64,000 bases of DNA, taken from Cognatishimia sp. F0-27. GTDB lineage: Bacteria > Pseudomonadota > Alphaproteobacteria > Rhodobacterales > Rhodobacteraceae. A model generated the notes under the pieces. That model had not been told where the DNA came from, did no database searches, and worked only from the letters and a program-made list of their open reading frames with translations. Numbering within the stretch: position 1 is the first letter of the stretch; each line of letters opens with the position of its first letter. The stretch spans positions 1 to 64,000 of the forward strand of contig NZ_JAFMPQ010000016.1 in the NCBI RefSeq assembly GCF_020667845.1, in the 5' to 3' direction. A program made the position numbers and the translations under genes. Below are positions 19,816 through 26,100 of the stretch, one piece after another.

Positions 19816-20547
19816 TCAGGCAAACAGGCGGTAGTAGAGCCAGTCCGGAAGAAACTGGCTGCCCCGGAACAGCAGACCGAACGCGGTCGGGAATGACTTC
19901 TTGAAGGTGCTGCCGCTCAGATGTTCGAAATAGACCCGGGCTGCCTCTTCGGGTTCCATGATGAACGGCATCTTGAAATCGTTCTTGTCGGTCAGACGGG
20001 TCTTGATGAAACCGGGATTGACCAGCTGCACATCGATCTCTGTCTTGTGCAGATCCGCATAAAGAGATTCCGCAAGAACCATCACACCAGCCTTCGAGGC
20101 GGTGTAAGGCGCCGCGTTGGGCAAACCACGGAAGCCCGACAGAGACCCGGTCAGCACGATATGCCCGGTGCCGCGCTCAACGAATTTCGGGACAACGGCC
20201 CCCATGAGACGCATCGCGCCGGTGAAATTGATATCGGCCATAGCATTCGCCTTTTCGGGATCCCACTCGGACGCGCCGAAGGGCCAATACACCCCGGCCA
20301 TCTGGATAACCCCGTCGATGTCGCCGATGTCATCGGCAACCCTCGAGACAGCGGCAGCATCCGTCACATCAAGCGGCGCAATCCGCGCCCGGCCGGGAAG
20401 CTTGTCGGCCAGCGCCTGCAACTTGTCTTCGGATCGCGCCGAGAGGACAAGCTCGACTCCGGAACGGCTCATCCTCTCCGCAAGCGCCTCGCCCAGACCT
20501 TCGGATGCTCCAACCAACCAGTATCGTTTGCCGTTCCATTGTCTCAC
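19816..20547 (-). CDS. Short-chain dehydrogenase/reductase, last gene of the sigma-E operon
   Basis: The product has 243 residues. The Rossmann motif GASEGLGEAL sits at about 11-20, and the catalytic YTASKAG follows near 145 with an upstream Ser. It is an NAD(P)-dependent oxidoreductase of unknown substrate. A GTG start at 20547 is preferred because AAAGGAG stands eight bases before it; the longer frame runs into unrelated low-complexity sequence. It lies 132 bp after the DUF3833 gene on the same strand. The order FAD oxidoreductase, DUF1365, MFS, DUF3833, SDR matches what I recall of the sigma-E target operon of Rhodobacter sphaeroides. Confidence 0.88.
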   Translation of the reverse strand: MRQWNGKRYWLVGASEGLGEALAERMSRSGVELVLSARSEDKLQALADKLPGRARIAPLDVTDAAAVSRVADDIGDIDGVIQMAGVYWPFGASEWDPEKANAMADINFTGAMRLMGAVVPKFVERGTGHIVLTGSLSGFRGLPNAAPYTASKAGVMVLAESLYADLHKTEIDVQLVNPGFIKTRLTDKNDFKMPFIMEPEEAARVYFEHLSGSTFKKSFPTAFGLLFRGSQFLPDWLYYRLFA

Positions 20548-20679
20548 AGGTGTCTCCTTTGCCGCTGGGGCCTTCTCAAACCGTGGCAGAGCGGGCGTCC
20601 CCGTCGCCGCCCCTCTCTGCTTGCGCAGCGCGGGCCGTCTCCGCCCTGCCCCGCGCTTGTGACACAAACGCGCCGTGCG

Positions 20680-21246
20680 CTAGACCGGTTCCTCGCGGCG
20701 CATGGTTGCAACCAGCTCGGCCACCTTGATCCCGAACTTCCGGAACTGGCTTCGATTCACAATCGTCCCGTTTGGCGCAAGATACATCCAATCGACCGTA
20801 TCAAGAATATGCCCGCCCGCGTCGTCAGGCAGGCGGATTCGGTAGCACAGCCGCAAGGACGGTCCGGCCTGTTCCCCGGCCCCTTCACCCACCACGTCGG
20901 GTGCGGTTGCCACGACCCGTCCGTCATTTCCAAGGACGAGAGTCCATTCACGATCCTGAACCGATCCGTCATCATAAGTGAACCGCTCCGTCATCACACC
21001 CTTGTTGCCTTCCCAGCGCGCATCGAACTCGCCGACAAACCGGGAAGACACGCGGCCAAGCGGACCATAGATCACACCTTCACATATGATCGGACCGTTC
21101 AGGTGCCGCGGCAGGTCGAGCGCCTCTCCTGGCGCGTTTGCGTAATCCTGCGGCCTTTGACCAAGGAACGCCGCATAGCGCACCCGCAGGTATCCCAAAA
21201 TCAGCATCATGACGGCGCCGATGACAATGTAATAGAGGGCTTCCAT
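20680..21246 (-). CDS. DUF3833 protein
   Basis: The protein has 188 residues. An N-terminal membrane helix (about 4-20) is followed by a lipocalin-like beta domain of the DUF3833 family (ICEGVIYGPLGRVSSRF, ERFTYDDGSVQDREW, and a repeated sheet-and-turn layout). It is probably anchored to the inner membrane facing the periplasm. Its ATG overlaps the stop of the MFS gene in a TGATG arrangement, so translation is coupled. The function is unknown, but the operon suggests a part in lipid handling or transport during oxidative stress. Confidence 0.85.
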   Translation of the reverse strand: MEALYYIVIGAVMMLILGYLRVRYAAFLGQRPQDYANAPGEALDLPRHLNGPIICEGVIYGPLGRVSSRFVGEFDARWEGNKGVMTERFTYDDGSVQDREWTLVLGNDGRVVATAPDVVGEGAGEQAGPSLRLCYRIRLPDDAGGHILDTVDWMYLAPNGTIVNRSQFRKFGIKVAELVATMRREEPV

Positions 21247-22472
21247 CACAGATCCTCCTCTTTGATAGGGGTGGCGACCAAAAGCAGGATCGCCACGAGT
21301 TTCAACGCCAGGGGAACCCCGGCGTACAAGGCCGTCAGCGCCGCACGCGCCGAGGCCGGGTTATCTGTTCCACTCGCGTAACCCTGCCACTCCAGCAGCG
21401 GCAGGAGCACAACGGCCGCAAAAGCCAGCGTGACCTTCGAGACGAAAGACCACAGCGCAAATCCCTCTGCCGCGTTGGGCGCAACCCGCGCCATTCGGGC
21501 CGAGAACATCGCAGGCAACAGGGTGAGGTCGGCGCCCATGGCCATTCCCGACCCGACACAAACCAGCGCGAACCAGACAACGTCACCCGGTCCCAGAAAC
21601 AAGGCACCGGAAAAGGTCACAACAGCCAGCGCCATGGCCCCGAGCAACACGGTCCGAGCGCCCCAGCGCTCTGCCAACATGCCCCAGACCGGGGCTGCCA
21701 GCGCTGCCGACAGGAAGAACAGCAGCAAAAGCGGCCCTTCCCAACCCGACGCCTCAAGCCGCCCCTCCACGAAGAACAGGAACAGCGTCGAAGACACCGC
21801 CACGGGCGCCGCGTTGATCAGTGCAATCAGCAGGAAACGCCTTGCCAGACCATCCCGCAGAACGGGCCCGAACCCGGTCTGTGGCAGGTCCGCCGAAAGC
21901 GACCACTCGCGCTGCATCAACACAATGGCCAGGACCACCACCGCTGCAAATACCAGCGCATAACCAACAAACGGCGGCACACCGACCGCTTCCAGAGCGT
22001 TTGGAGCCAAGGACGCCAGGCACACGCCGATCAAGGCGCCGCCCTCGCGCCAGCGCGCAAGGCGCAGATGGCCCTCGCCGGACATGGTCTGAGCCTTGGC
22101 AACACCCGTCGAGTAGAAGGCGATGTTCAGAAACGAAAAGCTCGAGAACACCAAGGTAAGCGTGATGGCGAACCACCAAATGGGTTCCATCGGTGGCGCC
22201 ACAGCGAACAGCCCGATCATGCCGAGCGCCATGGTCGCGCCGCCAATGGTCACGGCAACACCCCGCCGCCCCTCAAGCCCGCCGGCAATCCGGCCAAAGA
22301 GCGGATCCTGGATCACGTCGAACAAGCGCAAAACGAAGAGGACAGAGCCCAGCGCCGCGAGACTCACACCATACGTGTCCACGTAAACCTTGGGAGCATG
22401 AATGTAGATGGGCAGCCCTGCGGCCGCCAGGATCCCTGCAAAAACCGCATACGCCCCGAGGCGTTCCGTCAC
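21246..22472 (-). CDS. MFS transporter of the GPH (melibiose-like) type
   Basis: This 408-residue protein has about twelve hydrophobic segments. Features such as VIQDPLFGRIAGGLEGRRG near residue 55 recall the loop 2-3 motif of glycoside-pentoside-hexuronide symporters. The substrate is unknown; neighbours with lipid roles suggest that a sugar is not certain. A GTG start (22472) with GGGAGG upstream is used. It starts 22 bp after the DUF1365 gene and is coupled to DUF3833. Confidence 0.85.
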   Translation of the reverse strand: MTERLGAYAVFAGILAAAGLPIYIHAPKVYVDTYGVSLAALGSVLFVLRLFDVIQDPLFGRIAGGLEGRRGVAVTIGGATMALGMIGLFAVAPPMEPIWWFAITLTLVFSSFSFLNIAFYSTGVAKAQTMSGEGHLRLARWREGGALIGVCLASLAPNALEAVGVPPFVGYALVFAAVVVLAIVLMQREWSLSADLPQTGFGPVLRDGLARRFLLIALINAAPVAVSSTLFLFFVEGRLEASGWEGPLLLLFFLSAALAAPVWGMLAERWGARTVLLGAMALAVVTFSGALFLGPGDVVWFALVCVGSGMAMGADLTLLPAMFSARMARVAPNAAEGFALWSFVSKVTLAFAAVVLLPLLEWQGYASGTDNPASARAALTALYAGVPLALKLVAILLLVATPIKEEDL

Positions 22473-22494: not shown

Positions 22495-23253
22495 TCATTG
22501 TGTCACGTCCTCCATCGGGGGCTCCGGACGGGTCCGGTAGCGGGCACCCTTGAACCACAGCTTCAGCGCCTGCCAATGGATCAGCGCAAGCACGCGACGT
22601 GCCCCGAACGGGCGGAGGATCAAGGAGCGCAGCACGGAGCCTGTGGTCATTTCCCGGCGGGCACCGCAAAGCGTGGCAATCAGGCCGCCCTTGGAAGAGG
22701 AGTAATCGATCCAGATGCCGATCCGGTCCTCGGAGATATCAAAGCGAAACTGGTAGCCGCCCTCAACCGGTTGAAAAGGCGACACATGAAAGATCTTCTG
22801 CGCCACCATCCGATCACTCGGCACTATTTCCGACCGGTCCGGCTTCACACAAAGGTAGGAATGCCTGTCCCCGAACGTGTTCGTGACCTCGGCAATGACC
22901 GCGATCAGCTTGTTGTCGGCCGTGTAGCCCAGCCAGAAGGAGACCGGGTTGAACACATGCCCGAACATGCGCGGCTGCGCGAGAAGCATCAACGGGCCAT
23001 CGGCACGGATCTGGTGCGCCTCGAGAACCTCCCGCGCCCAACCGGCCCCGCGACCCTTGCCCGGCATGCCGCCGTGATCGACATCGTGCAGCGATGTGAC
23101 ATTGCCCTTGTTGCGCGAGAAAAGCCGCGGCACGCGCGGATCGGTGTCCTCTGCATCGAGCATGACGAAGTCAACGGAATAGCGGAATGCATTCCCGATG
23201 GCGCCCTTGCGCCCGTGATAGGTGTGCCCTGCGATATGATCGACGCTGCTCAT
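22495..23253 (-). CDS. DUF1365 protein
   Basis: This 252-residue cytosolic protein of the DUF1365 family has a typical HTYHGRKGAIGNAFRYSVDF start, an RMFGHVFNPVSFWLGY core and a C-terminal basic segment. DUF1365 genes are regularly paired with FAD-dependent amine-oxidase-like genes, as here (four-base gap), and often with cyclopropane-fatty-acid synthases. From memory, sigma-E target genes of this kind in Rhodobacter make furan fatty acids from methylated lipid chains (UfaD and UfaO steps). Which gene carries which name should be checked by alignment. Confidence 0.88.
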   Translation of the reverse strand: MSSVDHIAGHTYHGRKGAIGNAFRYSVDFVMLDAEDTDPRVPRLFSRNKGNVTSLHDVDHGGMPGKGRGAGWAREVLEAHQIRADGPLMLLAQPRMFGHVFNPVSFWLGYTADNKLIAVIAEVTNTFGDRHSYLCVKPDRSEIVPSDRMVAQKIFHVSPFQPVEGGYQFRFDISEDRIGIWIDYSSSKGGLIATLCGARREMTTGSVLRSLILRPFGARRVLALIHWQALKLWFKGARYRTRPEPPMEDVTQ

Positions 23254-23257
23254 GGGA

Positions 23258-24553
23258 TCATGCCGCCTCGACCATCACGGCGTCACGCGCGCGGATGGCA
23301 TCTACCACGTCGACCGCGCTCGAAAGCCCGTCTTCGTGGAAGCCGTTTTTCATCCACGCACCACAGAACCACGTGTTATGGGTGCCATTGCTCGCGGCAA
23401 CAAGCTTTTGACCTTCGAGGGCAGCCAGATCGTAGACCGGGTGGCGCAGAACCGTCTCGTCATAGATCAGCTCTTCGCGGATCGGGCGATTGGAGTTCAA
23501 AGTCACGAACATCGGGTCGTCTTTGGGGATGGGCTGGAGACAATTCATCCAATAGGTCAGGTCGATGGTATTCATCGCGCCCTGCGGCGCCTCGACGTAG
23601 TTCCACGAGGACCAGCACACCTTGCGCTTGGGCATGATCGCTTCATCCGCGTGCAAGACGACCTTGTTCGGCTGATAGCGGACGGCGCCCAGCGCACCGC
23701 GCTCGACCGGTGTGGCATCGGCCAGCATGCGCAGGCTGTCGTCGGAATGGGTGGCAAAGATAACGTCGTCAAACGTATCCCAGGCGCCCTGCGCCTTGAT
23801 TGAAACCTTGCCGGGCTCCCGACGAACCGTCTCGACCGGCGCTCCAAGCCGGAGCTTCGTCCCCTGCTTGCGCATCGCGGCTTCAAGCCGGGAGACATAC
23901 TGCACCGAACCGCCGTCAACCGTGTACCATTGATGCTGGCCGCTATGATGTAACAAGGCATGGTTCTCGAAGAACTGGATCAGTGCGTGTGCCGGGAAAT
24001 CCAGGATCTTGGATGTCGGCGTCGACCAGATCGCACCGGAGAGCGGCAAGAGGTAATAGTCACGGAACCACGGGCCTGTGCCCAGCTTTTCCAGAAAGTC
24101 ACCAAGGCTCAGGGTGCGATCCTGCGCACGGTCGAGCGCATGTTTGTTGAAATGGAAAATGTCGCGGACCATCCGCAAGAAGCGCGGATCGACCGCGTTG
24201 CGCTTCTGGGCAAAGAGCGCACCCAGCGTGCGCAAGCCATATTCCATCTGTCCGCCGTTGAGAGAGGCGGAGAAGCTCATGTCCGATTTCACCACCGGCA
24301 CATCGAGGGCCTCGAACAGGCGCGCCATGTGAGGATAGTTGGCGTAGTTGAACACGATGAACCCCGTATCCACCGGCTGATCACCGCGTTTGCCGGCGAC
24401 CTTGGTGCGGGCGTGACCGCCGAGACGGGGCTCTGCTTCAAAGAGCGTGACGTCGTGATCGTCCCCGAGCATGTGCGCCGCTCCCATCCCCGAAATTCCG
24501 GCCCCGATGATGGCGATCCGTCTTGGCGCTGCTGCGCGGGCTTCAAATGGCAT
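23258..24553 (-). CDS. FAD-dependent oxidoreductase (amine-oxidase/desaturase fold), first gene of the sigma-E operon
   Basis: The protein has 431 residues from the chosen start. The dinucleotide-binding motif IAIIGAGISGMGAAHML is at about 13-29, followed by the GGHARTKV stretch typical of flavin amine oxidases and phytoene-desaturase-like enzymes. The start at 24553 has AGGGA upstream. A promoter of the form TCATCC-N18-TAA lies 36 bases before it, facing away from rpoE. It is the equivalent in position and type of the gene next to rpoE in Rhodobacter sphaeroides, a core singlet-oxygen response gene. Its likely role is oxidation or desaturation of membrane acyl chains; that is inference from the family and context. 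Confidence 0.9.
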   Translation of the reverse strand: MPFEARAAAPRRIAIIGAGISGMGAAHMLGDDHDVTLFEAEPRLGGHARTKVAGKRGDQPVDTGFIVFNYANYPHMARLFEALDVPVVKSDMSFSASLNGGQMEYGLRTLGALFAQKRNAVDPRFLRMVRDIFHFNKHALDRAQDRTLSLGDFLEKLGTGPWFRDYYLLPLSGAIWSTPTSKILDFPAHALIQFFENHALLHHSGQHQWYTVDGGSVQYVSRLEAAMRKQGTKLRLGAPVETVRREPGKVSIKAQGAWDTFDDVIFATHSDDSLRMLADATPVERGALGAVRYQPNKVVLHADEAIMPKRKVCWSSWNYVEAPQGAMNTIDLTYWMNCLQPIPKDDPMFVTLNSNRPIREELIYDETVLRHPVYDLAALEGQKLVAASNGTHNTWFCGAWMKNGFHEDGLSSAVDVVDAIRARDAVMVEAA

Positions 24554-24588: not shown

Positions 24589-24615
24589 TTACGAGCCAGA
24601 CCCCGCGCTGGATGA
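24589..24615 (-). promoter_or_regulatory. Sigma-E promoter of the leftward operon
   Basis: On the minus strand, TCATCC (24615-24610), 18 bases, then TAA (24591-24589). This differs by one base from the known RpoE consensus TGATCC-N18-TA(A/G). The spacing is exact and the FAD oxidoreductase starts 36 bases downstream. Confidence 0.7.
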
Positions 24616-24650
24616 GTTTCATCCCCCGAAATTGTTGGGAAAAATATTTT

Positions 24651-24677
24651 TGATCCGATACGGTTCAGAGAACGTAA
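24651..24677 (+). promoter_or_regulatory. rpoE: Sigma-E autoregulatory promoter of rpoE-chrR
   Basis: TGATCC (24651-24656), 18 bases, then TAA (24675-24677). This is an exact match to the alphaproteobacterial RpoE consensus, so the operon should activate itself once ChrR releases RpoE. It stands back to back with the promoter at 24589-24615. Confidence 0.85.
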
Positions 24678-24792
24678 CTCTCATATGTTTGGACATGCAT
24701 CTCCGGTCGATAGCTCCGATGGGCACACAGCGCCCACAGCGCAGCTCCCGCGCCATATCGAGACCTTGTTTGAGTCCGGCAGAAAGAAAAGT

Positions 24793-25365
24793 GTGGACTT
24801 GCAGAGAAAGACCCACCCTAAAGACCCGTTGTCTGAAAACATGATCGAGGCGCTCATCCGCATTCGCGACAATCGCGATCAGGATGCCTTTGTGACGGTG
24901 TTCCGGCACTTTGCGCCAAGGGTAAAGGCGTTCCTCATGCGGTCCGGTGCGGATGCGACACTGGCCGAGGAATGCGTGCAGGAAGTGATGGCGACGGTCT
25001 GGCACAAGGCCGCGCAGTTCGATCCATCCCGTGCGTCGGTTTCGACGTGGATCTTCACCATCGCGCGCAACAAGAAAATCGACGTTTTGCGCAAGCAGCG
25101 TCGCCCCGAACCCGAGGACCTGCCGTGGGGACCGGAGTCGGAGCCTGATCAAGCCGAGGCACTCGGCCTGCAACAGGAAAGCGAAAAATTGGGTGCCGCA
25201 ATCGCGGCATTGCCGCAAAAACAGAGGGACCTGATCGAAAAGGCCTATTTTGGCGATCTGAGCCAGTCAGAAATCGCCGAACAGACCGGCCTGCCGCTCG
25301 GGACCATAAAATCAAGAATACGTTTGGCGCTCGATCGATTGCGACACGCCATGGACGCCACCTGA
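24793..25365 (+). CDS. rpoE: RpoE, ECF sigma factor of the singlet-oxygen response
   Basis: The product is about 190 residues. Sigma region 2 (AFVTVFRHFAPRVKAFLMRSG, then EECVQEVMATVWHKAAQFDP) and region 4 (YFGDLSQSEIAEQTGLPLGTIKSRIRLALDRLRHAM) are complete. The RRPEPEDLPWGPE linker is characteristic of the group that pairs with ChrR. The start is uncertain: the frame is open back to ATG 24685, which is almost on the predicted transcript start. GTG 24793 gives the N-terminal length seen in relatives, and ATG 24841 would cut into region 2. None has a strong ribosome site. chrR follows 69 bases later. Confidence 0.93.
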   Translation: MDLQRKTHPKDPLSENMIEALIRIRDNRDQDAFVTVFRHFAPRVKAFLMRSGADATLAEECVQEVMATVWHKAAQFDPSRASVSTWIFTIARNKKIDVLRKQRRPEPEDLPWGPESEPDQAEALGLQQESEKLGAAIAALPQKQRDLIEKAYFGDLSQSEIAEQTGLPLGTIKSRIRLALDRLRHAMDAT

Positions 25366-25434: not shown

Positions 25435-26100
25435 ATGTCAGACAAGAGACCAAACACCATTACACACCATCTCACAGATGAGCTGCTACTCGGCTATTCC
25501 GCAGGCACGCTGCCGGAAGCCGTGAACCTGATCGTCGCGACCCATGTCTCGTTATGCGATGACTGTCGTGCAGCGGTTGAAGCCTATGACGCGCTGGGCG
25601 GCGCCACGATGGACCATCTTGAAACAGTCGATGTTTCGGATGCGTGCCTTGATGGTGCGCTCGACCTGATCCGCAATGGCGCGTGGGCCGCACCGGACCG
25701 GCCGCTTGTCCCACAGGACTCCGTGCTGCCGCAGCCGCTTCGCGACTATGTCGGCGGCTCGATCGAAGACGTCAAATGGCGCCCCGTGGGCATGGGGGTG
25801 AAACAAGCCATCCTGCCGACGACGTCGGATGCCTCCGCACGGTTGCTCTATATCCCGGCGGGCACGGCGGTGCCGGACCATTCACATGGCGGTATGGAAC
25901 TGACACTTGTGCTAAAGGGCGCTTTCTCTGACGAAGATGGAACCTTTGCACGAGGCGATATCGAGGTCGCGCACGAGGATATGCATCACACTCCGGTGGC
26001 CGACATATCGGAAGACTGCATTTGCCTCGCGGTGACTGATGCACCTCTGAAATTCAAGGGTCTCCTGCCCCGCATTGCCCAGCGCTTCGTCGGCATCTGA
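25435..26100 (+). CDS. chrR: ChrR, zinc-dependent anti-sigma factor
   Basis: This 221-residue protein has two domains. The N-terminal zinc-binding anti-sigma domain shows HxxxCxxC (H37, C41, C44) plus upstream histidines at 11-12, which hold RpoE inactive. The C-terminal cupin domain (about 110-210) shows the metal ligands H-x-H-x3-E (PDHSHGGMEL) and a later His in the AHEDMHH stretch. In Rhodobacter this domain is needed to release RpoE on exposure to singlet oxygen. It is co-transcribed with rpoE from the upstream sigma-E promoter. Confidence 0.95.
   Translation: MSDKRPNTITHHLTDELLLGYSAGTLPEAVNLIVATHVSLCDDCRAAVEAYDALGGATMDHLETVDVSDACLDGALDLIRNGAWAAPDRPLVPQDSVLPQPLRDYVGGSIEDVKWRPVGMGVKQAILPTTSDASARLLYIPAGTAVPDHSHGGMELTLVLKGAFSDEDGTFARGDIEVAHEDMHHTPVADISEDCICLAVTDAPLKFKGLLPRIAQRFVGI

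Follow-up and report, generated by a model that had tools for sequence, protein, structure and literature searches.

A probable divergent ECF11 RpoE control region in Cognatishimia with a predicted leaderless rpoE start and a probable, overlooked N-terminal extension

The 131-bp gap between rpoE and ufaD in a 64,000-nucleotide stretch of Cognatishimia sp. F0-27 DNA (the window) is probably an ECF11 control region that works in two directions, with a leaderless rpoE mRNA that encodes a disordered extension on one side and a leadered ufaD mRNA on the other; we give this reading a probability of roughly 0.8. Its motif, gene content, conservation, reading frame and extension were observed in this analysis, and RpoE dependence, feedback and the roles of the enzymes are taken by analogy from work in R. 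sphaeroides. The divergent promoter layout is already known ECF11 biology. What is new is the predicted leaderless rpoE, with a probable, overlooked extension at the N-terminus of the protein; sequence comparison strongly supports this prediction. In a literature search that took in few subscription papers, no report of a leaderless rpoE from this group came up. The genes and promoter elements of the region are as follows.

19816-20667, reverse strand: short-chain dehydrogenase, RSP_1087-like (PF00106); the actual start codon may lie more internally
20680-21249, reverse strand: DUF3833 protein, RSP_1088-like (PF12915)
21246-22472, reverse strand: MFS transporter, RSP_1089-like (PF13347)
22495-23253, reverse strand: ufaO, DUF1365, RSP_1090-like (PF07103, E=1e-67)
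23258-24553, reverse strand: ufaD, FAD-dependent fatty acyl desaturase, RSP_1091-like (Pfam Amino_oxidase/NAD_binding_8; position and order as RSP_1091, PMC7380195)
24615-24589, reverse strand: predicted RpoE promoter of the ufaD operon (-35 TCATCC 24615-24610, N16, CGTAA 24593-24589)
24616-24650: 35-bp gap separating the two -35 elements
24651-24677, forward strand: RpoE (ECF11) promoter of rpoE-chrR (-35 TGATCC 24651-24656, N16, CGTAA 24673-24677)
24685-25365, forward strand: rpoE, ECF11 sigma factor of 226 aa if translated from the long start (Sigma70_r2 and r4_2 in Pfam; PDB 2q1z, E=1e-73)
25435-26100, forward strand: chrR, zinc anti-sigma factor (TIGR02451, 213.8 bits against a cut-off of 124.5; Cupin_7; H-x3-C-x2-C)

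The identity of the unit follows from both arms. The sigma factor has only sigma-70 regions 2 and 4 (PF04542, PF08281), its closest solved relative is R. sphaeroides RpoE (2q1z), and it is preceded by its own TGATCC-N16-CGTA promoter and followed by a ChrR with the zinc anti-sigma motif and a cupin domain, as expected of an ECF11 pair. To the left, the order FAD desaturase, DUF1365, MFS, DUF3833 and SDR is that of the RSP_1091-1087 type, in which the first two genes encode the desaturase UfaD and UfaO, which acts in furan ring formation (PMC7380195). The left-arm genes are ufaD and ufaO of furan fatty acid synthesis, which the preliminary description had missed, as it had the in-frame ATG at the predicted start point of the rightward RNA. 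Its proposal that both arms form one singlet-oxygen response unit is supported by homology, since the arrangement is that of the known ECF11 core regulon (RSP_1092-1093 and RSP_1091-1087). The ECF11 RpoE unit has been described (PMC3818230, PMC7380195, PMC6852236). In R. sphaeroides, where activation of RpoE-ChrR by singlet oxygen has been demonstrated, the promoters of both operons depend on RpoE, and singlet oxygen cannot trigger the breakdown of ChrR without RSP_1091/1090, which creates positive feedback (PMC3818230). In D. shibae, rpoE/chrR has the same neighbours, which belong to the light-induced stress response (PMC4373377), and the genome of the window carries reaction-centre genes, which give the cell a singlet-oxygen source of its own.

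By this analogy, singlet oxygen would trigger the breakdown of ChrR, and the freed RpoE would fire both promoters. Rightward, RpoE would transcribe its own rpoE-chrR operon, such that sigma and anti-sigma factor rise together, and leftward it would transcribe ufaD-ufaO and the three further genes. The resulting rise in UfaD and UfaO, which are needed for ChrR breakdown in R. sphaeroides, would then close a positive loop. The window resembles the R. sphaeroides (Cereibacter) region in its two operons, gene order and predicted RpoE promoters (PMC3818230, PMC7380195), and differs from it in having TCATCC in the ufaD arm and an in-frame ATG where the rpoE RNA is predicted to start, which is absent from the Cereibacter-group loci L142-L145. 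The regulons of P. syringae PSPTO_1043 and Shewanella oneidensis RpoE2 share with the window the TGATCC-N16-CGTA motif, a chrR partner and overlapping targets (PMC5507510, PMC4336711), whereas the P. syringae ufaD/ufaO homologues lie at a separate locus with phrB and cfa and are not divergent from rpoE.

The preliminary description had reported an exact TGATCC-N18-TAA site ahead of rpoE-chrR and a one-mismatch TCATCC-N18-TAA site, with identical spacing, facing the gene for the FAD oxidoreductase (ufaD). Both sites were read in the sequence (24651-24677 on the forward strand, 24615-24589 on the reverse), and the N18 spacing to TAA is indeed the same on the two strands, with TAA at 24675-24677 (forward) and 24591-24589 (reverse). 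The distance to ufaD needs a small correction, as TAA and the ATG at 24553-24551 are separated by 35 bases, not 36. Both sites have the form TNATCC-N16-CGTAA, which fits the motif better than TAA alone; TGATCC-N16-CGTA is the P. syringae consensus for sigma factors of this family (PMC5507510), and TGATCC(N15)GCGTA stands ahead of Pos19 in R. sphaeroides (PMC5036791). TGATCC-N18/19-TAA occurs once in the window against 0.25 expected from shuffles. Across the 4.89-Mb genome, TGATCC-N16-CGTA occurs nine times and TCATCC-N16-CGTA six times, mostly within long open frames. At genome densities, the 131-bp gap would contain an exact outward-facing site by chance about 1e-4 times, and a one-mismatch partner about 1e-3 times. 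A chance origin of the pair is ruled out by these gap statistics and by conservation, because the pair recurs between the same two genes in relatives.

This recurrence was assessed in 125 distinct Rhodobacteraceae loci (relatives and 80 named records), with the rpoE-arm site counted as present at a score of at least 12 of 14. The rpoE-arm site was present in 124 loci and perfect in 120, and the ufaD-arm site was found in 112 of the 119 loci where the search was possible. The ufaD start shows a clear Shine-Dalgarno signal, and the ufaD mRNA of the window would have an ordinary leader of about 28 nt. The gap between the -35 elements is often only 12-25 bp in relatives, compared with 35 in the window, and two RNA polymerases may therefore compete for the region in many species.

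The two arms differ at the second base of the -35 element. The rpoE arm keeps TGATCC, with G at this position in 111 of 112 loci against 54 of 112 in the ufaD arm, where the base varies between C, A and G by clade; G is found in the rpoE arm but not the ufaD arm in 58 loci and the reverse in one, although the loci are related and raw counts overstate their independence. Mapped on the RpoE tree, bases other than G occupy large clades and need about 10 changes, at least three of them forced by well-supported branches, and such a base is the usual state of the ufaD arm in the window's clade. One could take TCATCC as a decaying, non-functional site, with ufaD transcribed from another promoter, given that its single mismatch falls on a base that is near-invariant in the rpoE arm. 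We consider this highly improbable, as entire clades retain C at base 2, the distance from CGTA to the ufaD start is tight across genera (mostly 26-46 nt), and in P. syringae a TaATCt promoter gave 41-fold induction on sigma overexpression (PMC5507510). The mismatch is not decay because a non-G second base is common to dozens of genera and confined to the ufaD arm. Judged by its clade, the window's TCATCC is inherited and kept, not a fresh error, and the ufaD arm carries a predicted RpoE promoter that would tolerate other bases at -35 positions 1 and 2.

Whether the second base also tunes the response is a separate matter. Both arms could depend on RpoE with the ufaD arm weaker, as the preliminary description had suggested, or needing more RpoE, so that the sigma factor is made before the enzymes. 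The strong asymmetry and its spread beyond a single clade favour such tuning, but relaxed constraint explains the asymmetry equally well, and related species with TGATCC in both arms indicate that it is not essential. We therefore hold tuning only tentatively, at somewhat less than even odds; it is a refinement of the two-way control region, not a replacement for it.

The main departure from the published picture concerns the start of rpoE. Three further features are relevant here.

24685-24687, forward strand: ATG at +8 from CGTA, where the RNA is predicted to start and the leaderless rpoE mRNA to have its first codon
24685-24867, forward strand: 61-codon N-terminal extension of RpoE, predicted to be disordered
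24793-24795, forward strand: GTG, candidate second start behind a weak Shine-Dalgarno (-5.6 kcal/mol); the resulting short RpoE would resemble the solved R. sphaeroides protein

An ATG lies exactly at +8 after CGTA in 111 of 124 loci, among them the window, compared with about 3% at other offsets among the first 25, and it opens stop-free into rpoE in 109. Eight further loci have an in-frame ATG at +9, +10 or +11. A pyrimidine precedes the A in 114 of 117. The ufaD arms show an independent excess of YA at the same offset of 8 (0.33 vs 0.06-0.19 elsewhere), and ATG at that offset is rare in them (3 of 112). An S. meliloti ECF motif ending in CGTC lies 9 nt upstream of a mapped start (PMC3616915). 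Because the +8 ATG, the frame, the pyrimidine, the YA excess of the ufaD arm and the S. meliloti spacing agree, we take the A of this ATG to be the RNA start, which would leave the DNA upstream untranscribed; the 5' end is thus predicted from promoter spacing and an initiator signal. From such a start it follows that the rpoE mRNA would be leaderless and encode a disordered extension of about 60 residues. As in leaderless mRNAs, rpoE would begin with AUG, and no Shine-Dalgarno was found before the +8 ATG (mean -1.5 kcal/mol vs -6.35 at ufaD). Outside the Rhodobacteraceae, an in-frame ATG at +8 to +11 is present in 11 of the 19 alphaproteobacterial loci that have the site.

Leaderless translation, which we infer for the window organism, has a precedent in R. 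sphaeroides, which translates a leaderless acuR mRNA (PMC3017554). The acuR-acuI-dddL transcript is, like the one predicted here, an alphaproteobacterial regulator mRNA that begins at AUG without a Shine-Dalgarno (PMC3017554), although acuR encodes a TetR-family repressor with a start mapped by 5' RACE, whereas the window has a sigma factor and a predicted start. For rpoE itself, R. sphaeroides seems to be an exception among its relatives. An ATG at +8 is absent from 13 of the 124 loci, and none is present in any of the four loci of the R. sphaeroides-like Cereibacter group; our stand-in for R. sphaeroides, L143, whose RpoE is 98% identical, and its congeners are among those without it. That the model species is an exception would explain why the leaderless start went unnoticed.

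The extension is 44-63 codons long across loci and variable in sequence, with a predicted pLDDT of about 48-50 over residues 1-40. Its pN/pS, from only eight pairs, is 0.71 in the first part and 0.31 in the last 20 codons, compared with 0.07 in the core, and the wrong frames give 0.81 and 1.07 against the 0.71 of the extension frame. These values suggest weak constraint at the protein level. In most loci a second in-frame start, usually GTG, lies about 17-23 codons ahead of the core, with a Shine-Dalgarno better than background. The solved R. sphaeroides chain 2q1z starts in this region, 14 residues upstream of the matching stretch.

These observations raise an alternative in which the ATG at 24685 serves merely as a preferred RNA start (YATG) and is untranslated, with RpoE made solely from the internal start and the extension acting as a 5' leader. 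The conserved internal start with its Shine-Dalgarno signal, the missing +8 ATG of the Cereibacter group and the weak amino-acid constraint would all be expected if this were so. However, there is no reason why an untranslated leader should retain G at +3, which is conserved in 90% of loci, or hold the distance from +8 to the core at a multiple of three, as in 115 of 124. Furthermore, the rpoE frame alone is stop-free, in 120 of 124 loci, against 3 and 27 for the other two frames, which are stopped in 121 and 97. We regard an untranslated ATG as unlikely and favour a translated extension, with a predicted RpoE longer than the crystallised one.

With a second in-frame start, two forms of RpoE are possible, and the better Shine-Dalgarno at the internal start in most loci means that the long form may be minor. 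In many Alphaproteobacteria, the autoregulated promoter of rpoE could be merged with its start codon, so that RpoE drives a leaderless long isoform only when it is already active, alongside a short isoform from the internal start, with the long form lacking in the R. sphaeroides group, on which the system was worked out; we put the chance of this just short of even. If the leaderless start is true, RpoE of most Rhodobacteraceae and of other alphaproteobacterial families is probably mis-annotated, and the species chosen for its study is not representative. The protein would then be translated by leaderless rules and carry a tail that the crystal structure lacks and that could influence its stability or its binding to ChrR.

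In some lineages the short form perhaps has a second promoter of its own. An element of the form GAAAAA-n-CGGATGCR-N18-CTATGCTG lies inside the rpoE extension, about 32 nt after the rpoE ATG, in about 37 of 129 loci (L011, L059, L094, L096, L097, L105-L109, L111-L114, L142-L145 and others), the window not among them. It is fixed at the DNA level, occurs about once per genome and resembles an additional rpoE promoter placed upstream of the internal start. Some extensions encode a D-A-x6-Y motif; a function as a peptide was ruled out because its codons are fixed at the DNA level (GAT in 33 of 33, TAT in 31 of 33, Ala as GCR in 32 of 33) and the motif survives in broken frames. No conserved RNA fold of this motif was found when one was looked for, and with about one copy per genome, at rpoE, it is unlikely to be a general promoter type.

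Elsewhere in the genome of the window, a search of the available flanks of the cyclopropane-synthase-like genes found no RpoE-type site, including at the best ufaM candidate (L026, G000:C134:11089-11904), and the first step of furan fatty acid synthesis may therefore not be co-controlled here. Two other perfect RpoE-type sites precede genes: one (L147, G000:C41:81549-81574) lies 29 nt before a gene for an HlyD-family membrane fusion protein and one (L152, G000:C56:11031-11056) 58 nt before an rpoH-like gene, which its sequence suggests is similar to RpoHII. Finally, an assembly titled Enemella evansiae, an actinobacterium by name (L038, JAFKDC010000005.1), contains an rpoE-ufaD locus of the Rhodobacteraceae that is identical to the one in G003, and it is probably mislabelled.
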